A DNA stretch of 64,000 nucleotides from Eubacteriales bacterium (GTDB lineage: Bacteria; Bacillota; Clostridia; Lachnospirales; Lachnospiraceae). The DNA is taken from assembly GCA_030536575.1 (NCBI GenBank), contig JAUNPS010000015.1:1-64000 (forward strand), written 5' to 3'. The notes under the pieces are model-generated. The model did no database searches. It saw only the letters and a program-made list of their open reading frames with translations, and was not told the DNA's origin. A program made the translations under genes and the position numbers. Below, piece by piece: positions 11,083-60,001 of this stretch. The first letter of the stretch is position 1, and each line of letters starts with the position of its first letter.

Positions 11083-11442
11083 GTTACTTTTCACATAGCT
11101 TCCGACTACGTAATGATGACCGGACGCCACTGTGCCGACGAAAACCTTTCGGGGAACGGGGCAACGTCATCGTCTACGGAAAACCTGCCACTGGCAGCTT
11201 TTTCGCACACTGAGGCGAAACTTCCCCTAACTGCGACTAAGACGCTCAGGAGAGCCTTCCTATTTTATGCGCCTTGCCATGCGAGCATGGTATCCGATTC
11301 ACCGGAAAGTCTTAGTAAGGGGTGATTTCGACTCTTCCTAGAACCGCCCCTCGAAACACGTCCCCGCCAGCTTTCCGTCTTCACAGCGACTGTATATAGC
11401 CTGCTGGGAAGTATCGAAAAAATGATAAGTGTGAAAAGTACC
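11083..11442 (-). mobile_element. MITE-like element with structured core, copy A
   Basis: The ends are GTTACTTTTCACA at 11083 and, on the other strand, GGTACTTTTCACAC from 11442. The core reads on the minus strand and shares with copies B (56752-57041) and C (59618-60001) the blocks GACGTGTTTCGAGGGGCG, CTTAGTCGCAGTTAGGGG and GACGTTGCCCCGTTCCCC. This copy has an extra hairpin (CTGCC-AGT-GGCAG inside A/T arms, about 11177-11203) and shares with copy C a stem containing CCATGC-TC-GCATGG. No target duplication is visible and no transposase is encoded. It fills most of the 481-base azlC-lysR gap and lies immediately upstream of azlC in the same orientation. Confidence 0.75.
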
Positions 11443-11471
11443 TTTTTAATACCTTTATTTTAGCGTGCCCC

Positions 11472-11500
11472 TTGAAATTAGTCTAACGAATTCTTATAAT
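11472..11500 (+). promoter_or_regulatory. lysR promoter
   Basis: -35 TTGAAA at 11472-11477, a 17-base spacer, and -10 TATAAT at 11495-11500. Transcription would begin near 11507, inside the inverted repeat at 11506-11522. Confidence 0.75.
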
Positions 11501-11505
11501 AAAAC

Positions 11506-11522
11506 CATTAGTTTTACTAATG
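11506..11522. promoter_or_regulatory. LysR-type operator candidate
   Basis: CATTAGT-TTT-ACTAATG, a perfect 7-base inverted repeat containing the T-N11-A pattern of LysR-type binding boxes (ATTAG...CTAAT). It covers the predicted transcription start of the lysR gene, fitting autorepression. It also includes an upstream ATG at 11520, which argues against that ATG as the start codon. Confidence 0.6.
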
Positions 11523-11537
11523 AAAGGCGGAAATGTT

Positions 11538-12416
11538 TTGAATCGGTATCGTGTGTTTGTGAAAGTGGTGGAGTGCGGCAGCTTTACGAAGGCCGCGGAG
11601 GAACTGAATTATACGCAGTCGGCGGTCAGCCAGATGGTTCACACGCTGGAGGAGGAGCTGGACACGGTGTTGATTTTGCGGTCGAAGAACGGGGCGGCGC
11701 TGACGGTGGACGGGGAGGAGTATTTCCCTTATATCCGCTCGATTAGCCATGCACATCAGGAGTTGGAGGAGAAGTTCCGGGAGATGCAGGGGCTGAACAG
11801 CGGGAAGATCCGGATCGGCTCCTTTACGAGCGTGAGCCGGAACTGGCTGCCGGGGCTGATGAAGGAGTTTAAGGAGCGGTATCCGGGCGTGCAGTTCGAG
11901 CTGTTCCAGGGGGAGTATACGAACATTGCGCAATGGATTAAGGAGGGGCGCGTGGATTTCGGCTTTGTAAATCCGGAGGCGGTGGAGGGCCTGCAGACGA
12001 TTCCGCTGTACCAGGACGAGATGGTGGCGGTGCTGCCGCGGGGGCATGCGCTTGCCGGAAAGGACGTGGTGACGCTGGCGGAGCTGGCGAAGTGCCCGTA
12101 CATTTTGCTGGACGAGGGGGAAAGCAGCGTGCCGCTGGACGCCTTTGGGAGAAATGGGCTGACGCCGGATATCCAGTACCGGGTTTATGACGATTATTCG
12201 ATTGTGGCGATGGTGGAGCAGGGGCTTGGAATTTCGATTCTGTATAAGCTGGTGGTGGAAGGGCAGGCGAAGTCCTGTGTGACGCGGCCGGTGGAGCCGG
12301 CGGTGGAGCGGACGGTGGCGGTGGCGTGCAAGAACTGGAAGACGCTGCCGATTGCGAGCAGGCATTTTCTGGATTTTATTTTGGAATCCTTCGGGATTTT
12401 GGCAGAGGAGCGCTAA
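11538..12416 (+). CDS. LysR-family transcriptional regulator
   Basis: A 292-residue protein. The N-terminal winged helix runs from NRYRVFVKVVECGSFTKAAE through LNYTQSAVSQMVHTLEEELD (residues 2-40), followed by a periplasmic-binding-like effector domain (from about residue 88, GKIRIGSFTSVSRNWLPGLM). The preferred start is TTG at 11538, because AAAGGCGGAAA precedes it at correct spacing and LysR proteins begin a few residues before this helix. An in-frame ATG at 11520 has no ribosome site and lies in the operator. It diverges from azlCD, so it probably controls that exporter, perhaps sensing an amino acid. Confidence 0.87.
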   Translation: MNRYRVFVKVVECGSFTKAAEELNYTQSAVSQMVHTLEEELDTVLILRSKNGAALTVDGEEYFPYIRSISHAHQELEEKFREMQGLNSGKIRIGSFTSVSRNWLPGLMKEFKERYPGVQFELFQGEYTNIAQWIKEGRVDFGFVNPEAVEGLQTIPLYQDEMVAVLPRGHALAGKDVVTLAELAKCPYILLDEGESSVPLDAFGRNGLTPDIQYRVYDDYSIVAMVEQGLGISILYKLVVEGQAKSCVTRPVEPAVERTVAVACKNWKTLPIASRHFLDFILESFGILAEER

Positions 12417-12434
12417 ATGGCGCTTCTTTTTTTG
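12405..12434 (+). terminator. terminator after lysR
   Basis: GAGGAGCGC (12405-12413) pairs, with two G-T pairs, with GCGCTTCTT (12420-12428), followed by a T-run to 12433. It overlaps the last codons of the gene. Confidence 0.75.
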
Positions 12435-12545
12435 CGCCCAAACGGTTTACCAAATATTTACAAAGAACCCGAAGCAGGATTTACAAACATTCTTTAAGAT
12501 AGGGAGTGTTTCAAGAGAGTGTTCAGAAAAAGGAGAGATACACAC

Positions 12546-13700
12546 ATGTCAAATCTGACTTTACGCAATGTGTCCAAAGTCTATCCAAACCACAATTGCG
12601 TAGTGAGGGATTTTAACCTGCAAATTAAGGATCGGGAATTCATCATTTTCGTAGGCCCTTCCGGCTGCGGAAAATCCACCACCCTGCGCATGATCGCCGG
12701 GCTGGAAGAGATTTCCGAAGGGGAACTGTGGATCGACGGCGAACTGATGAATTATGTGGAACCCAAAGACCGGGGCCTGTCCATGGTTTTCCAGAATTAT
12801 GCTTTGTATCCGCACATGACCGTCTACGGAAACCTGGCCTTTGCCCTGAAAATCCAGAAGATACCGAAAAAGAAGATCGACAAGCAGGTACAGGAAGTGG
12901 CGGAAATCCTGGAAATCAGCCATCTGCTGAAGCGTTACCCCAAAGAACTGTCCGGCGGGCAGAGACAGCGCGTGGCCATCGGGAGCGCAATGATCCGTCA
13001 GCCGAAATTATTTTTAATGGACGAACCGCTGTCAAACCTGGACGCGAAGCTGCGGGCACAGATGCGCGTGGAAATTGCAAAACTGCACAAGGAGCTTGGC
13101 AGCACGATCATCTATGTGACCCATGACCAGACGGAAGCCATGACGCTGGGCACCCGCATTGTAGTGATGAAAGAGGGCGTGATCCAGCAGGTGGACGCAC
13201 CGCAGGAGCTTTACCAGAATCCGGTGAATCAGTTCGTGGCCGGGTTTATCGGTTCCCCGTCCATGAATTTCCTGGAAACTTCCGTGGGATTTTCCGGCGA
13301 CCGGGCCTGCCTGTATGTGGAGGGAACGGAACTTCCATTGTCGGACAATGCCTCGTTTATCCTGAAAAAGAAGGGCTACACGGCAGGAAGCATCCAAATG
13401 GGAATCCGTCCGGAAAACATCCTGAGCGAAAAACTGGCGGCGGAGACGGTCGGAACGCGCCTGAGCCGACCCATTCCGGTAAAAGTGACCGCAAGGGAAC
13501 TGTTGGGCAATGAAGTGATCCTGTACTTTGACCTGGAAGGGAAGCAATGCAGCGCGCGGGTGGAGCCGGAAAACGGCACGAAGGCAGGCGAAAGCACGAA
13601 AATATATCTGGATCTGAATAAAATCTACCTGTTTGACCCGGACACCGGGGAAAGCCTGCTGTATCATCCGGCCGCCGCGCAGGAAAGCATACCGGCATGA
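12546..13700 (+). CDS. ugpC: sugar / glycerol-phosphate ABC transporter ATP-binding protein (UgpC/MsmK type)
   Basis: A 384-residue ATPase. Walker A GPSGCGKST lies at residues 37-45, the ABC signature LSGGQRQR at 135-142 and Walker B LFLMDEP at 155-161. A C-terminal TOBE/OB region (about 240-370) is typical of the MalK/UgpC subclass. The start at 12546 is preceded by AGGAGA; an in-frame upstream ATG at 12519 lacks a site. It is the first gene of an operon with two permeases, a binding protein, a glycerophosphodiesterase and G3P dehydrogenase subunits, which points to glycerol-3-phosphate or its diesters as substrate. MsmK-type ATPases can serve several transporters, so it may be shared. Confidence 0.9.
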   Translation: MSNLTLRNVSKVYPNHNCVVRDFNLQIKDREFIIFVGPSGCGKSTTLRMIAGLEEISEGELWIDGELMNYVEPKDRGLSMVFQNYALYPHMTVYGNLAFALKIQKIPKKKIDKQVQEVAEILEISHLLKRYPKELSGGQRQRVAIGSAMIRQPKLFLMDEPLSNLDAKLRAQMRVEIAKLHKELGSTIIYVTHDQTEAMTLGTRIVVMKEGVIQQVDAPQELYQNPVNQFVAGFIGSPSMNFLETSVGFSGDRACLYVEGTELPLSDNASFILKKKGYTAGSIQMGIRPENILSEKLAAETVGTRLSRPIPVKVTARELLGNEVILYFDLEGKQCSARVEPENGTKAGESTKIYLDLNKIYLFDPDTGESLLYHPAAAQESIPA

Positions 13701-13717
13701 AAGGAAAGGAGAAAGAA

Positions 13718-14587
13718 ATGAAACGCAAACTTTCGGTGAAAGAACGGTTTGGCCCTTACGGCTATTTGGTGCCGAGCCTTCTGATCTTTGCAATCTTTTT
13801 GTTCTATCCGTTTTTTAAAACGATTTTCATCAGCCTGTATAAGACAAACAAGCTGGGGCAGCCCAAACTGTTTGTGGGACTTGGAAACTATATTGAGCTG
13901 CTGCAATCGAAATCTTTCGCAAACAGCCTGGTGGTAACGCTGATCTTCGTGGTCATCGTGGTGGCCGGAAGCATGATTCTGGGCCTGATCGCGGCGGTTC
14001 TGTGCAATAAGGCATTTCCGGGAATCCGGATTTTCAGCACAGCCTACGCGCTGCCGATGGCAATCGCCTCCAGCTCCGCGGCCATGATTTTTAAGATCAT
14101 TCTCCACCCTTCGGTGGGAATTTTAAATAAATTGACGGGTCTTGAGATCAACTGGATCAGCGACCCGAAATATGCTCTTGTCTGCGTTGCGGTTCTGACC
14201 GCCTGGCTGAACAGCGGTATCAATTTCCTCTATTTTTCGGCAGGGCTTGCAAACATTGACGAGAGCATCTACGAGCGGGCTTCCGTGGACGGGGCGAGCA
14301 GCTTTCAAAAATTTTTCCATCTGACCCTTCCGGGGCTCAGCCCGATCCTGTTTTACACGCTGGTGGTCAATATTATCCAGGCGTTCCAGTCCTTCGGCCA
14401 GGTAAAGATCCTGACCCAGGGAGGGCCGGGAGAGTCCACGAACCTGATCGTCTATTCGATTTACCGGGACGCGTTTTTCAACTACCGGTTCGGAAGCGCG
14501 GCGGCGCAGTCGGTGATCCTGTTTCTGATCGTAATGGCGCTGACGCTGATCATGTTCAAGATTGAGAAGAAGGGAGTGAAATACTGA
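13718..14587 (+). CDS. ugpA: ABC transporter permease, MalF/UgpA type
   Basis: A 289-residue inner-membrane protein with six hydrophobic helices. The permease EAA loop reads YERASVDGASSFQKFFHLTLP near residue 190 and contacts the ATPase. The start at 13718 has AAAGGAG upstream; an in-frame ATG at 13697 overlaps the ugpC stop but is less well placed. The end overlaps the next permease by one base (TGATG), showing translational coupling. Context (UgpQ and GlpA/B homologues downstream) supports import of glycerol-3-phosphate or glycerophosphodiesters; the sequence alone would allow another carbohydrate. Confidence 0.88.
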   Translation: MKRKLSVKERFGPYGYLVPSLLIFAIFLFYPFFKTIFISLYKTNKLGQPKLFVGLGNYIELLQSKSFANSLVVTLIFVVIVVAGSMILGLIAAVLCNKAFPGIRIFSTAYALPMAIASSSAAMIFKIILHPSVGILNKLTGLEINWISDPKYALVCVAVLTAWLNSGINFLYFSAGLANIDESIYERASVDGASSFQKFFHLTLPGLSPILFYTLVVNIIQAFQSFGQVKILTQGGPGESTNLIVYSIYRDAFFNYRFGSAAAQSVILFLIVMALTLIMFKIEKKGVKY

Positions 14588-15501
14588 TGGCAGCTTTTGA
14601 TACTGGAATCGGTGTTGTGGGTTATGAAGACCGGGAGAAATTAAAGGAACTGCACCGGGTGATGAATGCCCGTGCGAAGCGGAAAAAGCATCTCCGCCAG
14701 GGAGCGCTGATCCTTGGAAATCTGGTGATGGCGCTTTTCATTCTGTTGCCGCTGCTGTACGCGGTGAGCGTGGCGTTTATGCCGTCCAGCGAATTGTTCA
14801 CAATGGAGCTGAATCTTTTGCCGAAGAACCCGACGCTGGAGAACTTCCGGCAGGCCCTTACGAAGGTTCCGCTGGGACGGTTTGTGCTGAATTCGTTTCT
14901 GGTGGCCGGGCTGATTACGGTAGGACAGATTTTTTCGTGCTCGCTGGCGGCGTTTTCCTTCTCCTTCCTGGAGTTTAAGGGGAAAGGAATCCTGTTTATG
15001 CTGGTGATGGCAACCATGATGATTCCGGGCGAGGCCACGATCATTTCCAACTATCTGACCGTCAGCGGATGGGGATGGCTGGATACGTATCCGGTGCTGA
15101 TTGTGCCGTATTTGACCAGCGCAATGGGGATCTTCCTGTTCCGACAGTTCTATATGACGTTTCCGGTTTCCCTGTTTGAGTCGGCGAAGCTGGACGGATG
15201 CTCGAATCTGCGGTTCATTGTAAAAATTCTGATGCCGCTGACGAAATCGGCGATCGGGGCCATGGCGGTGTACACCTTCATCAATGCATGGAATATGTAC
15301 ATGTGGCCGCTGCTGGTGACCGGGTCGGATAAAATGCGGACGGTGCAGATTGGGATCGGTATGCTAAACAGTGTGGACGCACAGTCCATTACGCTGATGA
15401 TTGCAGGGGTTGTGATGATTATCCTTCCGTCGATTTCGATTTTTATCATTGGACAGAAACAGTTAATTAAAGGAATGTTCTCCGGTGCGGTGAAAGGCTG
15501 A
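14587..15501 (+). CDS. ugpE: ABC transporter permease, MalG/UgpE type
   Basis: A 304-residue permease with an unusually long cytoplasmic N-terminus (about 40 residues, including VMNARAKRKKHLRQG) before the first helix. The six-helix domain carries the EAA motif LFESAKLDGCSNLRFIVKIL near residue 200 and ends in the FIIGQKQLIKGMFSGAVKG tail found in nearly all MalG/UgpE proteins. It is the partner of the preceding permease, starting one base inside its stop codon. Confidence 0.9.
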   Translation: MAAFDTGIGVVGYEDREKLKELHRVMNARAKRKKHLRQGALILGNLVMALFILLPLLYAVSVAFMPSSELFTMELNLLPKNPTLENFRQALTKVPLGRFVLNSFLVAGLITVGQIFSCSLAAFSFSFLEFKGKGILFMLVMATMMIPGEATIISNYLTVSGWGWLDTYPVLIVPYLTSAMGIFLFRQFYMTFPVSLFESAKLDGCSNLRFIVKILMPLTKSAIGAMAVYTFINAWNMYMWPLLVTGSDKMRTVQIGIGMLNSVDAQSITLMIAGVVMIILPSISIFIIGQKQLIKGMFSGAVKG

Positions 15502-15529
15502 CAGCGGGAACCATAAAAAGGAGGCAATT

Positions 15530-16852
15530 ATGAAGAAAAAAATCATTTCCACAATGCTTGTAATGGCAATGCTGGCGTCCGCAGGGACGAGTACCGCGCT
15601 GGCGGAAGAGAGCAGCCTGGCCGGAACCACGATCGAGTTCTGGCATTCTATGGGCGGGGTCAATGGGGAGGCCATTGACTATCTGGTAAAGAAATTTAAT
15701 GAAGAAAATGAGTACGGAATTACGGTCAATGCGCAGTATCAGGGTGAATATGACGATACGATCAACAAGCTGAAGAGCGCGCAGATCGGCAATATGGGCG
15801 CGGATCTGGTGCAGATTTATGACATTGGGACGCGGTTCATGATCGATTCCGGCTGGGTGGTTCCGATGCAGGAGCTGATCGATGCGGCCGGGTATGATGT
15901 GACGCAGATCGAGCCGAACATTGCGGCCTATTATACCATTGATGACCAGCTTTACTCGATGCCGTTCAATTCTTCCACGCCGCTGCTGTACTATAATAAG
16001 GATATGTTCGCGGCGGCCGGGATTGAGGAGGTTCCGACCAGCCTGGAAGGAATCGGGAAAATCGCGGAGAAGCTGACGACGGAAGGCGGTGCCGGAGAGG
16101 CCATTTCGCTGGGCGTTTACGGATGGTTTTTTGAGCAATTTCTCTGCAAGCAGGGTCTTTCCTACGCGGACAATGGAAACGGAAGGGAAGCGGCGGCAAC
16201 CGGCGTAGAATTTGATGAAAACGGCGGAGCGCTGAAGATTCTGGAAGCGTGGCTGGCGCTGTCGGAAAGCGGCGCGGCTCCGAATGTGGGACGCGGAGGC
16301 GATGCGGGACTTGCGGATTTTTCGGCCGGGAAAGCGGCGATGACGCTGGGTTCAACGGCTTCCCTGAAGCAGATTCTGGAAGATGTGAATGGAAAATTTG
16401 AGGTTGGAACCGCGTATTTTCCGAGTGTGACGGCGGATGATGAGGGCGGCGTTTCCATTGGCGGGGCATCGCTGTGGGCGCTGGAGAATCAGGATGAGAC
16501 GCGGAAGGAAGCGACGTGGAAGTTTGTGGAGTTCCTGGTTTCGCCGGAGTCCCAGGCGTATTGGAATGCGCAGACGGGCTATTTCCCAGTAACGACGGCG
16601 GCTCACGAGGAGGAAGTATTCCTGGAAAACATTGCGCAGTATCCGCAGTTCCAGACGGCCATCGACCAGCTTCATGATTCGGCGCCGGCGTATGCGGGGG
16701 CGCTGCTGAGTATCTTCCCGGAGGCGCGCCAGATCGTGGAAACCGAGATTGAGAATATGCTGAATGGAAAAGAAACGGCGGAGGAAGCGGTTGACTCCAT
16801 GGCGGCGAGCATTAATAAATCCATTGAGGAATACAATCTTCTGAACGAATAG
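15530..16852 (+). CDS. ugpB: extracellular solute-binding protein, family 1 (UgpB-like)
   Basis: A 440-residue protein with a signal peptide (MKKKIISTMLVMAMLASAG, likely cut after ALA). The mature part begins with TTIEFWHSMGG and NEYGITVNAQYQGEYDDTIN, the family 1 SBP pattern seen in UgpB. It delivers substrate to the two permeases just upstream. The signal peptide has no lipobox cysteine, unusual for a binding protein in a Gram-positive cell. A strong AAAGGAGG site precedes the start, and a stem-loop with T-run follows the stop, which would enrich its mRNA relative to the downstream genes. Substrate assignment rests on the neighbouring glycerophosphodiesterase and G3P dehydrogenase genes. 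Confidence 0.87.
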   Translation: MKKKIISTMLVMAMLASAGTSTALAEESSLAGTTIEFWHSMGGVNGEAIDYLVKKFNEENEYGITVNAQYQGEYDDTINKLKSAQIGNMGADLVQIYDIGTRFMIDSGWVVPMQELIDAAGYDVTQIEPNIAAYYTIDDQLYSMPFNSSTPLLYYNKDMFAAAGIEEVPTSLEGIGKIAEKLTTEGGAGEAISLGVYGWFFEQFLCKQGLSYADNGNGREAAATGVEFDENGGALKILEAWLALSESGAAPNVGRGGDAGLADFSAGKAAMTLGSTASLKQILEDVNGKFEVGTAYFPSVTADDEGGVSIGGASLWALENQDETRKEATWKFVEFLVSPESQAYWNAQTGYFPVTTAAHEEEVFLENIAQYPQFQTAIDQLHDSAPAYAGALLSIFPEARQIVETEIENMLNGKETAEEAVDSMAASINKSIEEYNLLNE

Positions 16853-16869
16853 GAGCAAATAAAAGATAA

Positions 16870-16898
16870 AGGTGTTGCCCTTTGGCAGCACTTTTTTC
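16870..16898 (+). terminator. intra-operon terminator after the binding protein gene
   Basis: GTGTTGCC pairs with GGCAGCAC around CTT, followed by TTTTTTCTT. It lies between ugpB and ugpQ. Confidence 0.75.
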
Positions 16899-16927
16899 TT
16901 CCCAGCAGAGAGAAGATGCATTATAAT
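16899..16927 (+). promoter_or_regulatory. internal promoter before ugpQ
   Basis: -10 TATAAT at 16922-16927, 17 bases after a -35-like TTCCCA (4 of 6 matches). It starts where the preceding terminator ends, so ugpQ-glpAB may be transcribed separately from the transporter. Confidence 0.5.
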
Positions 16928-16956
16928 AGAAGGACAAGATGAAGGAGGAGTATGCG

Positions 16957-17682
16957 ATGACAAAGGTATGGGCACATCGGGGAGCGTCCGGGTACGCGCC
17001 GGAAAATACGTTGGAGGCATTTGAATTGGCCGCGAAGCAGGGAGCGGACGGCGTGGAACTGGATATCCAGCTTTCGAAGGATGGGGAGCTGGTGGTGATG
17101 CATGACGAAACGGTAGATAGAGTGACGGACGGAAGGGGAAGGGTGCAGGATTTCACGGTAAAGGAGCTGAAGGAGCTGCGGGTGCTGCATCCGGATTACC
17201 AGGATGCGCGGATTCCGACGCTGGCGGAGGTTTATGAGCTGCTGAAGCCGTATGGAATTGAGATCAATGTGGAAGTGAAGACAGGGATTTATTTTTATCC
17301 GGGCATTGAGGAGAAGGCGCTGGAGCTGGCGCGGCGGATGGGAATGGAGGATCGGATCTGGTACTCTTCGTTTAACCATGCGACGGTTGTGCGGCTGAAG
17401 GAGTTGGAGCCGTCTGTGCGGACGGGGATTTTGTATGCGGATGGGTGGCTGCGGCCCTGGGAGTATGCGAAGGAGATCGGAGCCGACGCATTGCATCCGG
17501 CTCTTTATAATATGCAGTTTCCGGGATATCTGGAGGAGAGCCGCCGTTTGGGGCTGCGGACGCATGTCTGGACGGTGAATGAGGAAGATTATATGGAGAA
17601 GCTGGCAAAGGCCGGGGTTGAGGCCATTATTACGAATTATCCGGACATTGCGCGGAAAATCGTGCAGAAATACGGCGATTAA
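16957..17682 (+). CDS. ugpQ: glycerophosphodiester phosphodiesterase
   Basis: A 241-residue cytoplasmic enzyme of the GDPD TIM-barrel family. The N-terminal WAHRGASGYAPENTLEAF holds the catalytic HR and PENT motif, followed by GVELDIQLSKDGELVVMHDE with the E-x-D and HD metal/catalytic residues, then EINVEVKTG. It hydrolyses glycerophosphodiesters to glycerol-3-phosphate and an alcohol. The start at 16957 is chosen because GAAGGAGGAG lies just upstream; the in-frame ATG at 16939 is inside that site. It lacks a signal peptide, so it acts on imported diesters and feeds G3P to the next two gene products. Confidence 0.92.
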   Translation: MTKVWAHRGASGYAPENTLEAFELAAKQGADGVELDIQLSKDGELVVMHDETVDRVTDGRGRVQDFTVKELKELRVLHPDYQDARIPTLAEVYELLKPYGIEINVEVKTGIYFYPGIEEKALELARRMGMEDRIWYSSFNHATVVRLKELEPSVRTGILYADGWLRPWEYAKEIGADALHPALYNMQFPGYLEESRRLGLRTHVWTVNEEDYMEKLAKAGVEAIITNYPDIARKIVQKYGD

Positions 17683-17706
17683 GCGGGAAAGGCAGGAGGA
17701 AAACGG

Positions 17707-20786: not shown

Positions 20787-20800
20787 CGGAGGCATTATCT

Positions 20801-49296: not shown

Positions 49297-49393
49297 GAGT
49301 CGGCTCCTTTCTGTCGATGAGAGAAAACGCGCATGGCGAAATTTTCCTCGTTATCGCGACAGCCGCCAAAGATCCTTGGCACGTTGTTCGCGT

Positions 49394-49437
49394 AAAAAAG
49401 CGTGTCCGCTCTTTTTGGTAAGTTCGGACACGCTTTG
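49394..49437 (-). terminator. intra-operon terminator after the binding protein gene
   Basis: Read on the minus strand, AAAGCGTGTCCG pairs with CGGACACGCTTT, followed by a T-run. It would let only part of transcription continue into the permeases, giving excess binding protein. Confidence 0.85.
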
Positions 49438-49450
49438 GGATTCCTGTGCG

Positions 49451-50740: not shown

Positions 50741-50780
50741 AAATAATACCCCCAAATTCGTTGATGGACTGTGTCTGCTG

Positions 50781-50815
50781 CATTTCCGGAAATGCTTGAT
50801 AGCATTATCCTATCA
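50781..50815. promoter_or_regulatory. palindromes upstream of the binding protein gene
   Basis: CATTTCCGGAAATG (50781-50794) is a perfect 14-bp palindrome, followed by TGATAG-CATTATC-CTATCA (50797-50815). They lie 40-75 bases upstream of the start codon and are candidate sites for the YesN-like regulator or another factor. Function inferred only from position. Confidence 0.45.
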
Positions 50816-50877
50816 CAAGAACCGGGGGCTTTCCAGTGGTAATATTTTTACAACTTGTTTAAATTTTTAAAGAAAAA

Positions 50878-51969: not shown

Positions 51970-53702
51970 TTATCGAGCACCTCCCTTTCCATAACCGGAA
52001 TGCGTATTTCAATTTTTGTTCCAACGTGCGCTTCACTTGAGACGGTTATCCCGTATTCCTCCCCGTAAAACAGGTGAATCCGGTCAATGACATTTTTGAC
52101 GCCGAAGCCGGAATAGAGCACCGAAGGGTCTTCCATGCCGATCCCGTCGTCCGTGATGGTAAAGTAGATTTCATCGCCGATCCGCTCGCCCTTCAGTTCG
52201 ATGAAGCCTTTCCCGATTTTGGCTTCGAGTCCGTGGTACATGGCATTTTCCACAAAAGGCTGAAGGATCAGCTTAATAATATGAAGTTCCAGGATGTCCT
52301 CATCCACTTCCAGAATGAGTTCAAAACGATTCTCATAGCGGATATTCTGAATCTGCATGTATTTCTTAATGTAGGCAAGCTCCTCGCTGATCTTAATTTC
52401 GCTGTTTCCGCGGCTCAGGGAAATTTTGAAGATATCGGAGAGGGCTCCTACCATGCAGGCGATTTCGGTTTGATTTTCGATTTCGGCTTTACAGTAGATG
52501 GAATCCAGCGTGTTGTAGAGGAAATGCGGATTGATCTGGGCCTGCAGAAGCAGAAGCTCGGACTCCCGTTCTTTTAAGCGAAGGGAGAGGAGACGTTCTT
52601 TCAGCTCAATGTTGTGGTTGACGGTTTCTTTCAGGGCGTTGCCGATCTCACCGATCTCGCTGTCGTCGAATTCTTCGGTGATATTGCGGCTGCCTTCCCG
52701 GACTTCTTCCAGAACCCGCTTCAGCTTGCCGAGGGGGCGGTAGATGGTATGGCTTAACAGGTTCGAAAGAAGCAGACAGGCGATCAGTATTGGAAATACC
52801 ATGGCGAAGACCATGGTTCGCAGGTAGACGCTTTCTTTGCTGAGTTCGTTTTTATCAATGCCGTTGATGATCTTCCAGCCGGTGGCGTAGTTCGTGTATT
52901 CAGTGAACAGGAAGCGGGAGGTTTCCTGGGATTCGGCGTAGTCCTGATACATTTCTTCAGCGTAGTCCTGGGTGTTCGTGTAATAGATGAGGGGGCTGGC
53001 GGATTTGCCGTCCACGACCATCAGGGTATCGCTGTCGAAGTCGGTTCCGCTGCCGACCAGAGTGGTGCTTAAAAAGGAATTGGAGAGCAGGACGACGACC
53101 ATTCCCAGCTTTTCGCGGGTCTGGAGATCCTTGATCTCTTTGACCAGGGAAACGGTGTTTGTATCGGAGGAGACGGAGAGGACGTTTTCGCCGAAGTAGA
53201 CTTCTTTTCCCTCATAGGCGTCGGCGGTCTGATACCAGAGTTCTTCGGTGCAGTCTTTTTCCGTATAATAGTCCAGATAGTCGGCGGCGAAGGTGTTGCT
53301 TTTGTTCCAGAAGGAGAAGCGGCCCTGTTCGTCGAAGATGGCGATGCCTTTTACCAGGTCGCTCTGGTTTTCCATCTGGCGGCAGAAGCGGGCCAGGGCG
53401 AGTTCGTCGCTGCTGGTGTAGTAGGGGCTTTGGCGGTCGTTGGCGGTTTTCAGGATGTCGAGGAAGTCGGTGCTTAGGAAGACAGCGCGGACGAGGTCGT
53501 TCAGGACCTGGAGGCGGTCGTCGATGATGCCGTTGAAGGTCGAAAGGTTGGTTTTGTAGACGGCGCGGTAGTTTTCCTCGATTTTGTTTTTGCAGATGTG
53601 CCAGGCGGTGAAGGAGACGGTGAGGGTGGCAAACAGGGTGAGGACGAGGAGGGAGGATAATATTTGGGTGCGGAGGGTGAGTTTTGGGAATTTTTGTTTC
53701 AT
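51963..53702 (-). CDS. sensor histidine kinase, YesM family
   Basis: A 579-residue membrane kinase. Helix 1 (about 15-37, LSSLLVLTLFATLTVSFTAW) is followed by a dCache-like extracellular sensor (about 40-290), helix 2, a HAMP region, the histidine-kinase core ALQINPHFLYNTLDSIYCKA-like segment (QAQINPHFLYNTLDSIYC), and the ATPase N-box QPFVENAMYHGLE with the G-box ITDDGIGM. The start at 53702 is preceded by AAAGGAG; the long open stretch upstream is not coding. It senses an extracellular sugar, probably with the binding protein, and phosphorylates the YesN partner. Confidence 0.92.
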   Translation of the reverse strand: MKQKFPKLTLRTQILSSLLVLTLFATLTVSFTAWHICKNKIEENYRAVYKTNLSTFNGIIDDRLQVLNDLVRAVFLSTDFLDILKTANDRQSPYYTSSDELALARFCRQMENQSDLVKGIAIFDEQGRFSFWNKSNTFAADYLDYYTEKDCTEELWYQTADAYEGKEVYFGENVLSVSSDTNTVSLVKEIKDLQTREKLGMVVVLLSNSFLSTTLVGSGTDFDSDTLMVVDGKSASPLIYYTNTQDYAEEMYQDYAESQETSRFLFTEYTNYATGWKIINGIDKNELSKESVYLRTMVFAMVFPILIACLLLSNLLSHTIYRPLGKLKRVLEEVREGSRNITEEFDDSEIGEIGNALKETVNHNIELKERLLSLRLKERESELLLLQAQINPHFLYNTLDSIYCKAEIENQTEIACMVGALSDIFKISLSRGNSEIKISEELAYIKKYMQIQNIRYENRFELILEVDEDILELHIIKLILQPFVENAMYHGLEAKIGKGFIELKGERIGDEIYFTITDDGIGMEDPSVLYSGFGVKNVIDRIHLFYGEEYGITVSSEAHVGTKIEIRIPVMEREVLDKC

Positions 53703-53768
53703 GGGAAGGCTCCTTTGGGGTGTGATGAAGTTATTATAACGTATTTTGGGAAGAAAAGCACGGGGAAA

Positions 53769-53780
53769 GTTACTGTTCAC
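53769..53780 (+). repeat. solitary GTTACTGTTCAC end
   Basis: Matches the terminal sequence of element D and resembles the ends of A-C, but no partner end is found nearby. Probably a remnant of the same element family, located between yesM and the next kinase gene. Confidence 0.4.
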
Positions 53781-53849
53781 GTAATACTGGATTTTCCAGG
53801 AGTCTGAGAGTATAATGAAGGGGAAGGAAAAAGGAAAGAAGGTATCTGC

Positions 53850-54713
53850 ATGTCTGTACGGAAGCTGTCTGCTATGCTGTTTCTGGTCAATGGAATGCAG
53901 TTTCTGCTGGGTGCGGGTATGCTGATCGGTTTGCAGAGCAATGCGATCGGCTATTCGGAAATGGTCGTGGATCTGGCAATGGGGCTGGTGCTGCTCTCCA
54001 GCATTTTGTCCATTGCAGGGCTGTTTTCTGTGACCCGCTACCAGAAACTGAGCTACCAGAAAAGCATGGAAAATCTGGAAAATCTGAACACCAAGCTTCG
54101 GGAACAGCGCCATGATTATATAAATCAGCTCCAGGTCGTCTATGGCCTTCTGGAGCTGGAAGAATATACGGATGCGTTAGAGTATCTGCGGCCGGTGTAC
54201 CGGGACATTTTAAAGGTAAACCGGGCGCTGAAGACCGCCCAGCCCGCCGTCAATGCGCTTTTGCAGGCGAAGATGGACGAGGCGGAGCAGCACGGGATTA
54301 TCTTTTCGCTGGACATTGCGACCCAACTGAAAGGGTTGAAAACAGAGCCATGGGAACTGTGTAAAATCCTGGCAAACCTGATCGACAATGCCATCACCGC
54401 CGTCAAGCCTCTGGAGGGCGAGCGGAAAATCACCCTCCGCATGGCCGAACAGGACGGCCGCTACCAGTTCGCCGTGAGCAACAACGGCCCGGAAATCCCC
54501 AAACAGCAGCAAAAGCTGATCTTCCGCAAAGGCTACACCACCAAAAAAGAAGAGGGCCACGGGATGGGCCTTTCCATCGTATCGTCGGTACTGAAAGAGG
54601 CGGGCGGCGAAATCCATCTGGGGAGCACGCCGGAGGAAACCGTGTTTTCCTTTTCGCTTCCTGTCAGTTCATCCTCAAAAACTGACAAGTTGCGGGAAAA
54701 ATTGTATAAATAA
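53850..54713 (+). CDS. sensor histidine kinase with Spo0B-alpha-type dimerisation domain
   Basis: A 287-residue kinase. Two N-terminal membrane helices (about 5-30 and 40-60) precede a dimerisation helix pair with the phospho-accepting His in LREQRHDYINQLQVVYGLLE. The GHKL ATPase has the N-box ILANLIDNAITAVKPLE, the G-boxes NNGPEIP and GHGMGLSIV. There is no large sensor domain, so it reads a membrane or intracellular signal. The likely partner is the LytTR response regulator at 57059, three genes downstream; the flotillin genes lie between them. A -10-like TATAAT lies at 53811-53816. Confidence 0.87.
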   Translation: MSVRKLSAMLFLVNGMQFLLGAGMLIGLQSNAIGYSEMVVDLAMGLVLLSSILSIAGLFSVTRYQKLSYQKSMENLENLNTKLREQRHDYINQLQVVYGLLELEEYTDALEYLRPVYRDILKVNRALKTAQPAVNALLQAKMDEAEQHGIIFSLDIATQLKGLKTEPWELCKILANLIDNAITAVKPLEGERKITLRMAEQDGRYQFAVSNNGPEIPKQQQKLIFRKGYTTKKEEGHGMGLSIVSSVLKEAGGEIHLGSTPEETVFSFSLPVSSSSKTDKLREKLYK

Positions 54714-54856
54714 TGGATTTTGTCTTTTATCTTTCTCCTGTTTTCTGTAAAATGTAGACTATAAAGATATTCGTTTCATCAGGGAATGCCGTTCTGCAAG
54801 GGGCGCGCATTACCGTGCAGCGAAATGTATGATTTTACTGGAAAGGGGGAAAGCTT

Positions 54857-55342
54857 ATGGATACGATGACATTGATCGGGATTCTTTTGCTGGTGGCCGG
54901 TTTTATTCTGGTAGGGATCGAGATCGTGCTTCCGGGATTTTCGGTTCCGGGAGTCAGCGGGATCATCTGTCTGGTAGTCGGGGTATTTCTTCTGGCGGAT
55001 ACCGTGACGGAAGGCGTTTTCATCACGATCGCCGTGCTTGCGCTTCTGGGAATCCTTATGGCCGTGCTCCTGTGGCTCCTGTCGAAAGGGAAGCTTCGGA
55101 CGCCGCTGATTCTCAAGGAGGAGCAGAACCGGGAGGAAGGCTATTTAAGCTCCAGCGATCTGAATTACCTGCTGAACAAAAAAGGCTACGCGGTGACGGA
55201 TTTGCGGCCCGCCGGAGTCGGAAACATCGACGAGATCAAGTTTGACGTTATGTCGGAAGGAAATTACATATCCAAAGGAGCAGAGATTCAGATCATAAAA
55301 GTAGAGGGATCGAAACTGGTCGTTCGGGAAATCAGAAAGTGA
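54857..55342 (+). CDS. NfeD-like membrane protein
   Basis: A 161-residue protein: a short N-terminal segment, three membrane helices (about 5-70, with [20 protein letters not shown]) and a C-terminal OB-fold (about 100-160, [20 protein letters not shown]). This is the short NfeD form that accompanies flotillins and lacks the ClpP-like protease domain. It is encoded directly before floA, 10 bases apart, and presumably works with it in membrane-domain organisation. Ribosome site AAAGGGGG. Confidence 0.88.
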
Positions 55343-55352
55343 GGAGAAGAGA

Positions 55353-56312
55353 ATGGGTAATATTTGGTGGATTGTACTGTTATGTATTATTGGATTACTG
55401 GTTATTTTATTTTTCACGTTTGTTCCGGTGGGGCTTTGGGTATCCTCGCTGGCGGCGAACGTAAAAGTCAGCATCTTTAACATGATCGGTATGCGTTTAA
55501 GACGCGTAAAACCGGCGAAGATCGTGATGCCGCTGATCAAGGCGAGAAAAGCCGGGCTGGATATGGCTGTGAATCAGCTGGAAGCCCATTATCTGGCTGG
55601 CGGAAATGTTGACAATGTCGTGAACGCATTGATCGCGTCCGAAAGAGCAGGCATTGAGCTGAAATTCGAGAAAGCCGCCGCCATCGACCTGGCCGGACGA
55701 AACGTCCTGGAAGCCGTAAAAATGAGCGTAAACCCGAAAGTCATCGAGACGCCGAACGTTTCCGCGGTCGCGAAAGACGGTATCGAGCTTCTGGTAAAAG
55801 CCCGTGTAACCGTGCGCGCAGACCTGGAACGCCTGGTCGGCGGCGCGGGCGAAGCGACGATTCTTGCGCGAATCGGCGAAGGCATCGTCACCACCGTGGG
55901 TTCCGCGAACTCGCATAAAGAAGTCCTGGAAAACCCGGACGATATTTCGAAACGCGTCCTCAGCAAAGGGTTGGATTCCGGAACTGCTTTCGAGATTCTT
56001 TCCATTGACATTGCGGATATCGACGTTGGACGGAATATCGGTGCACAGCTTCAGAGCCTTCAGGCGGAAGCGGATAAGAACATTGCGCAGGCAAAGGCAG
56101 AGGAGCGCCGCGCCATGGCCGTTGCGAAAGAACAGGAAATGCGCGCCTACGTGGTGGAAGCGGAAGCCGAAGTGCCAAAAGCCATGGCTTATGCCCTGCG
56201 TGAAGGAAAGATTGGCGTGATGGACTATTATGAATTGCAGAACCTGAAAGCCGATACCGAGATGCGCGAGACCATCGGCGGAAAAGGCGGGGAGAAAGAG
56301 ACCCTGGATTAA
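55353..56312 (+). CDS. floA: flotillin-like protein FloA
   Basis: A 319-residue protein of normal FloA (YqfA) length. An N-terminal membrane hairpin ([20 protein letters not shown]) is followed by a PHB/SPFH domain ([20 protein letters not shown]-type segment through [20 protein letters not shown]), then a Glu/Ala-rich coiled region ([20 protein letters not shown]) and the end [16 protein letters not shown]. FloA forms membrane microdomains that host signalling proteins and secretion factors. It lies between a sensor kinase and its probable response regulator, which suggests the kinase works in these domains. Confidence 0.95.
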
Positions 56313-56333
56313 GCGGACAGAGGGGGCGAAGGC

Positions 56334-56759
56334 ATGAAGAAAAACAGCGTATGGGATTCCATTGCCATGATGAGCGGCGGGCGGGTGACCGGCTTAGGCA
56401 GCCATCAGGTGGATCTGGATAAAATATACCAGTCCCTGTCCAAGGCCGGGCGGGAACTGAGCGGCGCGAAAAAGAAAGAGAAGGCAAAGGACTGGGCGGA
56501 AGAAGCGGTTTTGGAAGCAGAAGAAGCGGAAGAAATGTACGTGCAGGAAGAGCTCAACTTCGATTTCGAAGAAAAGAAACGCCCCCGAATGGAAGCTGTC
56601 CCAGCCAGGCCAAAGCCGGAGCGGATGGCGTATGTTCAGACGCGAAGCTGCTTCGGGCAGGAGGAATTGTCCCCGGAGATGCTGCAGAAAGCTATGGTGT
56701 GGGCGGAGATTCTGGGGGAGCCTGTGGCGAAGAAGCGGCGCAGAAGAAGGAGTTACTAA
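56334..56759 (+). CDS. small acidic/basic protein of the flotillin operon
   Basis: A 141-residue protein of unknown family. It has no membrane helix; a charged central region (EEAVLEAEEAEEMYVQEELN) is probably helical, and the C-terminus is an arginine run (KKRRRRRSY). Strong ribosome site AGGGGGCG, 21 bases after floA. The last two codons and the stop come from the end of an inserted mobile element (56752-57041). Before insertion the protein probably ended RRRMR with a TAA one base before the LytTR gene. It may be a cytoplasmic partner of FloA. Confidence 0.72.
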   Translation: MKKNSVWDSIAMMSGGRVTGLGSHQVDLDKIYQSLSKAGRELSGAKKKEKAKDWAEEAVLEAEEAEEMYVQEELNFDFEEKKRPRMEAVPARPKPERMAYVQTRSCFGQEELSPEMLQKAMVWAEILGEPVAKKRRRRRSY

Positions 56760-57049
56760 TCACACTTACGCCAGCTGTCCAATAGGAACCAGTTCTTTTG
56801 CTACAGTCGCCGGGAAGGCGGAAACCTTGCGGGGACGTGTTTCGAGGGGCGTTTTTAGGAAGAGTCGAAATCGCCCCTTATCTAAGACTTAGGCGCGAAG
56901 GCGTTCCTGAGCGTCTTAGTCGCAGTTAGGGGAAGTTTGACGATGACGTTGCCCCGTTCCCCGAAAGGTTTTCGACGGCACGGTGGCGTCCGGTACGATT
57001 ATGTAGTAAGAAATGATAAAGCTGGCGTTGTGTGATGTAACAAAAAGGA
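56744..57049 (+). mobile_element. MITE-like element with structured core, copy B
   Basis: The element proper is 56752-57041 (290 bp). Inverted ends: GTTACTAATCACACTTACGC and, from the other end, GTTACATCACACAACGCC, both leading into CCAGC. Flanking 8-bp direct repeats AAGAAGGA (56744-56751) and AAAAAGGA (57042-57049) differ at one base. The core matches copies A and C in blocks GACGTGTTTCGAGGGGCG, CTTAGTCGCAGTTAGGGG and GACGTTGCCCCGTTCCCC, but with the shortest helices. GAGGGGCG pairs with CGCCCCTT, CTAAGAC with GTCTTAG, GGGGAA with TTCCCC. No protein is encoded. Confidence 0.85.
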
Positions 57050-57058
57050 TGAGGTAAA

Positions 57059-57799
57059 ATGGCAATAAAAGTAATGCTCGTAGAAGATGAAGCCGGTATC
57101 CGGCTTCTTCTTCGTAAAATGATCGAAAAGCAGGAAGGGTTCGAGGTGGTGGCGGAGTGCGACACCCTCTCCGAATCCGTGATCCAGTTCCATCGGAAAC
57201 AGCCCGAAGTGGTCTTCCTTGACATTGAAATCAAAGGTGAGAATGGAATTGAATGCGCGCGCGTCCTGACAGACTTAAACCCAAAAGTGAAGCTCATCTT
57301 CGCCACAGCCCACGCGGAGTACATGCGGGAGGCCTTTGAACTCTATGCCTTCGACTATCTGGTGAAGCCCTTCGACCTGGAGCGGGTGAACCGCACCCTG
57401 GAACGCATCGCTGCCCTGGAACGCCCGGCAGCCTGCGAACAGGAAGAAAAAGTCGTCCGCCTGGACTGTCTCCAGGAAAAGCTCCTGGTAAAAGGAAAAG
57501 AAAGCATGAGCTTTATCAATATTCCGGATATCGTGCTGATCCAGCGGGAAAATAACGCGACCGTGATCTACACAGAAACGGACAGCTACGTAACCTCGGC
57601 GAGCCTGGCCGACCTGGAAAAAAAGCTGAACCCTATGCAGTTCCTGCGCAGCCATAAATCCTACATCATTAACCTGTCGCGCATTCGAAAAATCGAGCCA
57701 TACGGAAGATGGACGCACGTAGTACATTTCCAGGGGAGAAAAGAAGACGCGCTTCTGACAGCAGAGAAATTCGAAGAGCTGAAAAAGCGGTTCCAGTAG
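57059..57799 (+). CDS. LytTR-family response regulator
   Basis: A 246-residue regulator. The receiver domain (1-120) has acidic Glu9-Asp10-Glu11, phospho-acceptor Asp55 (VVFLDIEIKGENG) and Lys in FDYLVKPFDLERV. The LytTR DNA-binding domain (about 140-245) shows INIPDIVLIQRENNATVIYT, FLRSHKSYIINLSRIRKIEP and LLTAEKFEELKKRF. It probably pairs with the kinase at 53850. The ribosome site AAAAAGGATGAGG is formed by the downstream target-duplication copy of mobile element B, which now separates this gene from the flotillin operon. Confidence 0.9.
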   Translation: MAIKVMLVEDEAGIRLLLRKMIEKQEGFEVVAECDTLSESVIQFHRKQPEVVFLDIEIKGENGIECARVLTDLNPKVKLIFATAHAEYMREAFELYAFDYLVKPFDLERVNRTLERIAALERPAACEQEEKVVRLDCLQEKLLVKGKESMSFINIPDIVLIQRENNATVIYTETDSYVTSASLADLEKKLNPMQFLRSHKSYIINLSRIRKIEPYGRWTHVVHFQGRKEDALLTAEKFEELKKRFQ

Positions 57800-57823
57800 A
57801 GAAAAAGAAATCCGATTAAAAAA

Positions 57824-57852
57824 TTTACAGAATGCCCCCGATGGGTTATAAT
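57824..57852 (+). promoter_or_regulatory. mtn promoter embedded in a terminator
   Basis: -35 TTTACA at 57824-57829, a 17-base spacer, and -10 TATAAT at 57847-57852. The spacer is the left arm of the hairpin at 57829-57879, so read-through transcripts carry the hairpin while transcripts from this promoter do not. Confidence 0.75.
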
Positions 57853-57880
57853 AACAAAAGAACCCACCAGGGGCATTCTT
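57829..57880 (+). terminator. long hairpin after the LytTR gene
   Basis: AGAATGCCCC (57829-57838) pairs with GGGGCATTCT (57870-57879), and inside it TGGGTT pairs with AACCCA. The tail TTGTATTT is only moderately T-rich. Confidence 0.65.
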
Positions 57881-57910
57881 GTATTTATAATAGAAAGCAG
57901 AGGAAACCAT

Positions 57911-58612
57911 ATGAGCACAATCGGAATCATCGGGGCAATGGAAATCGAAGTCGAAGCCCTCAAAAAACACATGAAAGTCCGCCGCACCGTCCAGAAAGCC
58001 GGCATGGAATTCTGCGAAGGCGTCCTCTCCGGCCACGAAGCCGTCGTAGTCCGCAGCGGCATCGGAAAAGTAAACGCCGCCATCTGCGCCCACATCCTGA
58101 TCAACGACTTCCACGCAGACGCCGTCCTGAACACCGGCGTCGCAGGCTCCTTAAAAAACGAAATCAACATCGGCGACATCGTCATCTCCACCGACCTTCT
58201 CTACCACGACATGGACGCGACCGGCTTCGGCTACGCGCCCGGCAAGATCCCTCAGATGGACGTAGACACCTTCCAGGCAGATGAACGTCTTTGTGAACTT
58301 GCTGAGAAAGCCTGTAAAGAGGCGAATCCGGACATTCAGGTCTTTCACGGCCGGATCGTCAGCGGCGACCAGTTCGTCTCCAGCCGGGAAGTCAAGGATC
58401 GGATCTCAAAACTGTTCGACGCATTTTGCACGGAAATGGAGGGTGCAGCCATCGCCCATGCGGCCTGGCTGAACAAGACGTCTTTTGTCGTTTTAAGGGC
58501 AATCTCCGACAAGGCGGATGACAGCGCTTCCATGGATTACGACGTTTTTGAACGCCAGGCCGCGGAGAACTCCGTCCGCCTGGTTGAGAAATTACTGGAA
58601 CTTGACCTTTAA
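57911..58612 (+). CDS. mtnN: 5'-methylthioadenosine / S-adenosylhomocysteine nucleosidase
   Basis: A 233-residue enzyme of normal length. The N-terminal GIIGAMEIEVEALKKHM has the catalytic Glu, VVVRSGIGKVNAAICAHILI follows, then NTGVAGSLKNEINIGDIVIS, the substrate-binding FCTEMEGAAIAHAAWLNKT and VLRAISDKADDSASMDYDVF with the catalytic Asp. It cleaves MTA and SAH to adenine and the ribosyl thioether, serving methionine salvage and AI-2 production. Ribosome site AGAGGAAACC; its own promoter and terminator make it a single-gene unit. Confidence 0.95.
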   Translation: MSTIGIIGAMEIEVEALKKHMKVRRTVQKAGMEFCEGVLSGHEAVVVRSGIGKVNAAICAHILINDFHADAVLNTGVAGSLKNEINIGDIVISTDLLYHDMDATGFGYAPGKIPQMDVDTFQADERLCELAEKACKEANPDIQVFHGRIVSGDQFVSSREVKDRISKLFDAFCTEMEGAAIAHAAWLNKTSFVVLRAISDKADDSASMDYDVFERQAAENSVRLVEKLLELDL

Positions 58613-58625
58613 AAACTTCATCTGC

Positions 58626-58662
58626 AAAAAGTCCGGAAATCCGCGGGTTCCGGGCTTTTTTT
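58626..58662 (+). terminator. terminator after mtnN
   Basis: AAGTCCGGAA (58629-58638) pairs with TTCCGGGCTT (58648-58657) with one T-G pair, followed by a T-run to 58662. Confidence 0.88.
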
Positions 58663-58779
58663 GTCGAACAAAACTGCTTGCAAAATCCGAAAAATCAGGT
58701 AATAATGGCTGGGACAGGCGGCCGGCGCCCGACAAACCACACCACATGCTGGTGGACAACCAAAAAGGGGGATTCATTT

Positions 58780-59574
58780 ATGTTACAGTTTTTGATGGAA
58801 ACGAACACATTGCTCTACGCGATGGCTGCGGTATGCGTCCTGGGTGTGATCAGCCAGATCTTCTTAGGCAGAGTTTACGCCAGGTTGGAAAAGGATACGG
58901 CCAGGGGCGGACAGGCCCAGGGAAAACTGATGAAGCGGATACGGCAGAGGCTGTCGGCCAGCCGGAATCATGCGATACTGATCGAGAACAGCCTGATGGA
59001 ATACCACGTACTGGGGCGCAGCCTGCACAGTTGGCAGCGTACCGGGTTTCTGGCCATGGCGGTCGGACTGGTTCTTGGAACCATTGGCTGGTATTTTGCC
59101 GGAAGCAGAAATATGGGAAATGCCCTGCAGCAGCGGTATTTATGGGCGATGGCCGCCACCGTGGCCATAACCGTACTGGCCTACCTGTTCGCAGATAACG
59201 GATATAAGAAAAGAAACCTGGAAACCTGCCTGCTGGACTATCTGGAAAACACCCTCGGAGAAGGGAGCTATGAGCACGCCGAGGCCGCTGCCTCCGCAGA
59301 GCCCGCAAAGACCCAGCCGATAAAAACCGCGCCGGAAAAATCCCAGCCCGCCTCCTTCACCCCGGCTCCCAGAGACCGCCAGCTCAAAATAAAAGAGACG
59401 AAAGCCCAGCGCGACAAACGCGAACTCAAAGAAAACCTCTCGCGCCTCAAAGAGGGCCTAAGCGAATCCGCCGCCGCCCAGGAAAAAGAGCGCAACACCG
59501 AAATCCTGAAGCAAATGGACCCCAAAGAGCAGGAACGCGTCATACGGGAGGTACTGAAAGAATTTCTGTCATGA
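58780..59574 (+). CDS. unrecognised membrane protein, 264 residues
   Basis: Not recognised. Three hydrophobic segments (about 10-31 LLYAMAAVCVLGVISQIFLG, about 86-108 TGFLAMAVGLVLGTIGWYFA, about 120-140 YLWAMAATVAITVLAYLFAD) are followed by a hydrophilic C-terminal half of about 110 residues rich in Glu, Lys and Ala (LKENLSRLKEGLSESAAAQE), predicted helical or coiled-coil. The start at 58780 has AAAAAGGGGG upstream. It stands alone after the mtn terminator and before mobile element C. Could be a membrane-anchored scaffold; this is only a description of its shape. Confidence 0.75.
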   Translation: MLQFLMETNTLLYAMAAVCVLGVISQIFLGRVYARLEKDTARGGQAQGKLMKRIRQRLSASRNHAILIENSLMEYHVLGRSLHSWQRTGFLAMAVGLVLGTIGWYFAGSRNMGNALQQRYLWAMAATVAITVLAYLFADNGYKKRNLETCLLDYLENTLGEGSYEHAEAAASAEPAKTQPIKTAPEKSQPASFTPAPRDRQLKIKETKAQRDKRELKENLSRLKEGLSESAAAQEKERNTEILKQMDPKEQERVIREVLKEFLS

Positions 59575-59617
59575 CGGGCCGCCCGCCGGGTGACTCCTGA
59601 TTCGGCCGGGCCGTCGG

Positions 59618-60001
59618 GTTACAGTTCACAGCCATGCCAGCCTTCTTACATTTCCCAGTCATCTATATACAGTTGCCGGGAAGGCGGAAAGCTTACGGGG
59701 ACGTGTTTCGAGGGGCGCACTTCACCGGAATCTCCGTTTCAGGCGGAGATGTAGGCGTGCCGTATACGGCAAGGAAGGATGTCGAAATCGCCCTTTCTAA
59801 GACTTTCCGGTGAATCGGATACCATGCTCGCATGGCAAGGCGTATGAAATAAGAAGGCTCTCCTGAGCGGCTTAGTCGCAGTTAGGGGAAGTTTGACGAT
59901 GACGTTGCCCCGTTCCCCGGAAGGTTTTCGACGGCACGGTGACGTTCGATTATCCCACAGTGGTTAAAAACTAGAAAGGCTGGCGATGTGTGAACTGTAA
60001 T
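59618..60001 (+). mobile_element. MITE-like element with structured core, copy C
   Basis: A 384-bp element. It begins GTTACAGTTCACAGCCATGC and the other end, read inward, is ATTACAGTTCACACATCGCC; both continue into CAGCCTT(C/T), giving inverted ends of about 28 bases. The flanking octamers GCCGTCGG and GCCTCCCG match at only 5 of 8 positions, so a target duplication is uncertain. The core shares the three conserved blocks with A and B. It has a unique extra region with CTCCG-TTTCAGG-CGGAG and GCCGTATACGGC hairpins (about 59726-59772), and with copy A a 39-base stretch including CCATGC-TC-GCATGG. It fills most of the gap before pgi, reading in the same direction. Confidence 0.82.

Follow-up and report, generated by a model that had tools for sequence, protein, structure and literature searches.

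Among the closest described systems to the element reported here are the CGTC-tagged repetitive extragenic palindromic sequences (REPs). As characterized in passages of Di Nocera et al. (2013; PMC3733652), these measure 20–40 bp, with stems of 8–9 bp and loops of 4–5 nt, lie mostly downstream of genes, form pairs in opposite orientation and have no known dedicated transposase; the word “clostridi” is absent from the main text of that paper. We analyzed a stretch of 64,000 nt (“the window”; contig JAUNPS010000015.1, positions 1–64,000) from Eubacteriales bacterium GCA_030536575.1, in which a preliminary description had reported three copies (A, B and C) of a mobile element family carrying a core that resembles a structured RNA. 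The core is a structured DNA repeat found in multiple genera, and in the window's genome it appears to move as cargo of a miniature inverted-repeat transposable element (MITE). Overall we lean, with moderate confidence, toward reading it as a REP-like dispersed DNA hairpin repeat, maintained through template switching and gene conversion and captured by a MITE in the window's genome.

A plain DNA search of 60 relatives returned weak matches in one genome alone (G028; genomes and loci are cited by our G and L numbers) and none in two genomes of the same genus as the window's. The cores of nine G028 copies can be aligned over their full length with those of the window's genome, and the sequences of the internal loops are kept across genera, whereas the flanks are not. 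Because alignment A2 puts the outer helix out of register between genera, a covariance model was built on these nine copies alone. Within the family of the window's organism, probably Lachnospiraceae, it matched 34 of 397 genomes, including the window's genome and G028 itself. The order-wide search matched 6 of 392 genomes, all six in the same family and four of them among the 34 already found. Nine genomes gave 38, 10, 8, 48, 14, 13, 31, 8 and 7 model matches, some of which are the antisense reading of one palindrome; distinct places listed number 46 in G419, 35 in G128 and 20 in G028 (48, 38 and 31 matches, some antisense or unlisted). An exact 18-mer contig scan added nine stretches in distant bacteria, known from that exact match alone, and no match to the element was detected in plasmid, phage and viral collections. 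The preliminary description had not recognized the core as a known RNA class, and Rfam has no match to it: at the gathering score neither the window nor the elements at 11 loci gave one, and miRNA-type matches over L033 and L120 fell far under the cut-off. HEARO, group I and II introns, retron RNA, bridge RNA and integron attC sites were considered and dropped, with the Rfam scans as the sole test. Among the matches listed, no description of the family was found in the open-licence literature.

The core covaries strongly. In the nine G028 copies 96.2% of the cells are paired and 24 of the 41 pairs are double-changed (shuffle means, 83.6% and 10.7), in a test that favors the five-helix structure because it was written by hand from the same nine sequences. 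Double-changed cells number 53 vs. a shuffle mean of 14.3 and 5–9 on slid controls, and there is a single one-sided change; the 33 further pair types are not above shuffles.

In genomes other than the window's, the core often sits at the tip of a long inverted repeat, and each copy has its own repeat sequence. We searched for the borders of this repeat in 105 copies, the remainder of 114 model matches once 8 antisense rows and one duplicate locus had been removed. A CA, which the search required, and a GTCC border paired arms in 49 of the 84 copies outside the window's genome. The left arms of these framed copies span 16–98 nt, and 36 of 49 fall between 26 and 30 nt. When scanned from CGTCC with the CA not required (G128, G419 and G028), 65 of 71 rows have CAG just ahead of the left arm, some rows being second readings of one element. 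Four elements (L174, L164, L035 and L210) are followed downstream by a partial extra 3′ arm and CGTCC, resembling remnants of an earlier arm or tandem duplications. Close pairs of elements ordered minus-then-plus, with their CCA ends facing, were seen in G391, G255, G128, G419, G028, G669 and G323. Contig 45 of G419 holds a cluster of four (minus, minus, minus, plus), and G225 has two tandem copies (L138; plus, plus).

RNA selected for pairing is expected to contain GU far above AC among its mismatches. The 49 framed stems contain 1488 Watson-Crick, 23 GU, 21 AC and 39 other pairs, and eight tRNAs from the fetched DNA, counted as a control, contain 162 Watson-Crick, 11 GU and 0 AC (Fisher p = 0.004 for wobble in framed stems vs. 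tRNA). When each stem was oriented by the nearest gene with its stop toward the element and no more than 250 nt away, the count on the strand of that gene was 22 GU vs. 17 AC, including the one framed copy from the window's genome. These counts come from the border search, which replaced an anchored arm extension that overran the true stem ends (GU 171, AC 168). The opposite strand as a functional RNA was a further candidate; it fell with the border-search counts, which show no wobble preference on either strand. As the covariation consists mostly of double changes and the framed stems lack this preference on both strands, it is unsafe as evidence of RNA in this family. The core does have a partial GU preference, given below, and the earlier view of an RNA under structural selection is possible there.

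How such stems change can be followed between G128 and its congener G419, from which we aligned 13 of the orthologous elements. By eye, six are unchanged in type. In five (L162, the first element of L164, L170, L179 and L190) the apical hairpin has been swapped together with its supporting helix; L190 is the weakest of these cases, with flanks of ~80% identity. The inner helix alone was exchanged in one. In the remaining one, the left arm of L177 has gained 3 nt and pairs perfectly with its right arm at all but one of 28 positions (27 of 28), and the orthologue L212 keeps an imperfect arm; the L177 arm is thus a copy of its partner, as replication template switching predicts. Parts of a study of RNA genes argue for template switching as a source of multi-base compensation (PMC8794818). 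At L161 (G128), the flanks match two separate G419 element loci, L202 and L219, and the junction suggests, from sequence, a rearrangement through recombination between copies.

From these observations, the element can be drawn as a 5′ CA, a private stem closed by G-C and mostly 26–30 bp long (up to 98), the core as an apical, conserved, imperfect hairpin of ~125 nt, the other arm, and GTCC. The hairpin would form while the locus is single-stranded, template switching during replication would copy one arm off the other and so keep the pairing, and recombination between copies would move apical cassettes. In the window's genome, the hairpin may have become enclosed by terminal repeats that a putative DDE-type transposase recognizes in trans, and the enclosed hairpin would then have multiplied as a MITE, making 8-bp duplications as it inserted. 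The insertions that survive are mostly upstream of and codirectional with genes, through selection or insertion preference. An effect of the insertions on downstream genes is possible.

The three copies in the window lie where the preliminary description placed them, and its three invariant blocks match letter for letter. The copies, their parts and the genes behind them are as follows.

11083–11442, minus: copy A, whole MITE, with terminal repeats GGTACTTTTCACA / GTTACTTTTCACA.
11122–11392, minus: copy A inner hairpin unit, bounded by CA and GTCC and holding the conserved core, by reading (frame borrowed from the stem test, which lacked copy A).
11263–11306 (limits approximate), minus: copy A hairpin module M2, from sequence and copy alignment.
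11175–11217, minus: copy A hairpin module M3, from sequence and copy alignment.
10334–11056, minus: azlC, behind copy A (Pfam AzlC, 9.3e-37).
56752–57041, plus: copy B, whole MITE without extra modules; flanking 8-mers agree at 7/8.
56804–56991, plus: copy B inner hairpin unit, CA to GTCC; the core, GGGGACG..TTCCCC, is at 56831–56962.
57059–57799, plus: gene for a LytTR-domain response regulator, behind copy B (Pfam).
59618–60001, plus: copy C, whole MITE, with terminal repeats GTTACAGTTCACA / ATTACAGTTCACA.
59670–59947, plus: copy C inner hairpin unit, CA to GTTC, with the core, by reading.
59723–59771, plus: copy C hairpin module M1, from sequence and copy alignment.
59806–59849 (limits approximate), plus: copy C hairpin module M2, from sequence and copy alignment.
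60132–61481, plus: pgi, behind copy C (Pfam PGI, 8.2e-22).

All three neighbors had been named correctly (Pfam AzlC, response regulator plus LytTR, and PGI), and a short ATG frame, noted by reading, sits between copy C and pgi. The stems and ends first described for these copies are mostly right, but one GTCTTAG half is GGCTTAG in copy C and the left end of copy A is GGTAC rather than GTTAC. The two terminal repeats agree at 12/13 bases in A, 9/13 in B and 12/13 in C. As the flanking 8-mers agree at 2/8, 7/8 and 5/8 positions, respectively, only copy B, judged singly, suggests a target duplication. Copy B, the only copy folded, has z-scores of −6.4 and −5.9 against shuffles on its two strands; because it folds well on both, folding does not choose the strand.

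We identified at least 48 loci in the window's genome, copies A–C and 45 others, by DNA searches with copy B, copy A and fragments at contig ends, each search scoring the best 40 of 70 candidates. Both core ends (GGGGACG.. and ..TTCCCC) are present at 43 loci, all of which were aligned, and the other five are cut by contig ends. The suggestion that extra hairpins come and go as modules was correct: copy B has none, A has M2 and M3, and C has M1 and M2. Across the 43 copies, three hairpin modules vary in six combinations (by hand count, none in 29, M1 in 2, M3 in 1, M2 + M3 in 1, M1 + M2 in 5 and all three in 5) and the rest of the core is nearly constant. One MITE copy (G000:C40 15273; L230) has lost the apical half of the core through an internal deletion.

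Terminal repeats and 8-bp duplications across the copies support the view that the family is mobile. By inspection, 36 of the 43 copies carry terminal repeats (GTTACAGTTCACA), some degenerate; when no more than two mismatches to GTTACNGTTCAC are allowed at either end, 24 of 43 qualify. Flanking 8-bp duplications in strict register are exact in seven copies and match at 7 of 8 positions in seven more, and in the others are decayed or absent. Paired terminal repeats are lacking by inspection in seven copies (L007, L017, L022, L026, L027, L049 and L063), none of which has both ends within two mismatches; L017, L026 and L063 may, by eye, retain remnants of one end. The end motif GTTACNGTTCAC occurs at 83 sites in the genome vs. 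0 for a backwards control. This genome contains a second abundant MITE, with the GTTACTGTTCAC end in common and an unrelated interior of ~150 bp (e.g., L233 393, L234 325 and L236 399). It owns most of the end-motif sites read, and at least seven of its copies have 8-bp duplications by eye. The shared ends and the 8-bp duplications imply that a transposase acting on such ends is or was present. Two end-motif pairs, 1.3 and 2.6 kb apart, were considered as full transposons, and each turned out to consist of two distinct MITEs, between which lie open reading frames of ordinary appearance. Within the window, an isolated GTTACTGTTCAC motif, which resembles an end of the second MITE, lies at 53769–53780, just upstream of a gene, with no partner end seen in the 900 bases read.

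The core is not bound to this MITE. In addition to the seven copies without ends in the window's genome, 83 copies elsewhere have no MITE ends around them, out of 84 at which these were sought. The exception is L092 (G250, another genus; around 1501–1627), a framed hairpin inside MITE-like ends, GTTGCTGTTCAC / TTTACTGATCAC, with matching inner repeats. At the locus of copy C in G001, the intergenic DNA is too diverged to place an empty-site junction.

Placement relative to genes was taken from codon-scored gene calls, with the GTCC side as the facing side. In the window's genome, a codirectional gene begins on that side in 30 of the 36 MITE copies and in all seven others (one-sided p = 8e-7 vs. 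one half), and 34 of 43 are upstream and codirectional with a cruder gene caller; a stop codon is faced in only 6 of 43. In other genomes the GTCC side mostly faces a stop: 26 of 35 in G128, 7 of 10 in G028 and 21 of 29 in mixed other species (medians 42, 81 and 44 nt, respectively). The small sets from G360 and G405 are opposite to these, with a stop faced in 2 of 9. Thus, the earlier statement that each core reads toward the next gene fits 37 of 43 copies here but not G128, G028 and the mixed other species, where 54 of 74 face a stop. The upstream, codirectional rule is real in the window's genome and is not general. A mobile 5′ leader had been proposed at the outset; because placement is reversed in most of the relatives' copies, a conserved 5′ leader is unlikely.

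Several results weigh against a DNA hairpin repeat captured by a MITE. With pairs below 60% Watson-Crick per group left out, the core has 652 double changes, 50 GU, 20 AC and 69 others, and under the same filter GU to AC is 10 to 0 in the window's genome. Over all pairs the counts are 174 GU, 34 AC and 254 others in 4211 cells, or 4.1% wobble vs. 6.4% in tRNA, although a single conserved G.U position supplies some of this unfiltered count, and misregistered copies of the window's genome supply some of the remainder. In the ratio of GU to AC, the core barely differs from the stems (p = 0.046) and does not differ clearly from tRNA (p = 0.057), and RNA-level tolerance of, or selection on, the core is possible. 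The frame is also far from universal: 35 of the 84 outside copies fail the border search, including all nine of G360 and G405, and only 1 of 21 passes in the window's genome. The size is not that given for CGTC-tagged REPs in the sections cited above, as the arms here, 16–98 nt and private to each copy, surround a conserved core of ~125 nt. No transposase was seen between paired MITE ends in ten stretches around end motifs (open reading frames listed in two; 83 sites in total), and the capture may not be unique, since L092 is perhaps a second, independent one. A functional structured RNA (a mobile 5′ leader, a small RNA or part of a larger system), spread here by the MITE, transcribed with or ahead of the gene and folded by way of conserved helices and internal loops, would account for the GU excess in the core, the internal loops conserved across genera, the double-sided changes well above shuffles and slid controls, and the upstream, codirectional position of most copies here. 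We regard this as possible but doubtful: the other sets show the opposite placement, the framed stems have no wobble preference, one-sided changes are nearly lacking against 53 double ones, and template switching can account for multi-base compensation, as argued in the parts of PMC8794818 cited above.

The remaining explanations turn on what moves the element. If it were a MITE only, that is, a decaying non-autonomous DNA transposon with a functionless fold-back middle and an orientation bias due to selection against harmful insertions, then the terminal repeats, the 8-bp duplications and the second MITE with the same ends would be expected, and the possible traces of one end in L017, L026 and L063 and the one relative copy within similar ends would fit. 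However, the core is kept without ends in nearly all copies outside the window's genome, and its sequence is conserved across genera while the flanks are not, so that we consider this explanation quite unlikely. Movement by a tyrosine HUH transposase that recognizes the tag (a REP-associated tyrosine transposase, RAYT) is consistent with the resemblance of tag and tail to the CGTC REPs and with the close pairs that face each other by their CCA ends. It seems very unlikely, as Y1_Tnp has no match in 3 of 10 carrier genomes (G389, G083 and G360, with 10, 8 and 12 places listed) and no match in the ten is flanked by listed elements, the nearest being 1.25 kb off in G028 and one of three like copies there. 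We also considered a class of mobile hairpins in which a putative enzyme would read the apical core and each insertion would gain a private stem of ~27 bp by fold-back copying, within a CCA/GTCC frame whose cores, TwoAYGGAY included, would be interchangeable; this is a speculative and rather unlikely proposal. A DNA hairpin repeat maintained by template switching and gene conversion, with MITE capture in the window's genome, is the reading we retain.

The Rfam family TwoAYGGAY (RF01731) has a core unlike that of this family and can be found in a similar setting. In G374, all four copies found sit in a CCA..GTCC frame with long paired arms, and one of them adjoins an element of the hairpin family; no such frame surrounds another eight copies, spread over four other genomes, with contig ends truncating two of these. 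At L120, a TwoAYGGAY RNA (3359–3523, minus; 78 bits) lies within a long palindrome with CCAG/CGTCC borders and forms a minus-plus pair with a family element, between open reading frames whose translations, by reading, resemble argG and argC. The corresponding locus in G033 has ~250 bp vs. ~719 bp between aligned flanks, and although the junction is not placeable, both the L120 element and its TwoAYGGAY neighbor seem to be absent there.

The element shares terminal inverted repeats, 8-bp target duplications and many copies with MITEs, but differs in its cargo, a conserved hairpin with an independent existence in other genera. Dispersed intergenic fold-back elements also include the BOX elements of Streptococcus pneumoniae and enterobacterial repetitive intergenic consensus (ERIC) sequences, and BOX modules are variable; the likeness is by description only, and neither is known to have private stems. 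With the CGTC-tagged REPs, as far as the cited sections describe them, the element shares the CGTC tag at one end, seen in the 49 outside copies with a CA..GTCC frame, and an unpaired CCA-type tail at the other, seen as the CAG before the left arm. Pairs in opposite orientation are a further likeness, as is the lack of a known dedicated transposase. Placement is mixed: the tag side mostly faces a stop in G128, G028 and the mixed other species, as it would downstream of genes, but seldom in G360 and G405 or the window's genome. By analogy, it is best filed as akin to a giant CGTC-tagged REP; its size falls outside that group, so we do not claim membership. The family offers a test case for whether covariation proves RNA, as it combines strong compensation, few one-sided intermediates, cassette exchange and one template switch caught in the act. 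The comparison suggests that the orphan TwoAYGGAY family is able to sit in such a frame, and that the CGTC-tagged REPs, whose mobility is unexplained, have relatives of several times their size in which a core is conserved.

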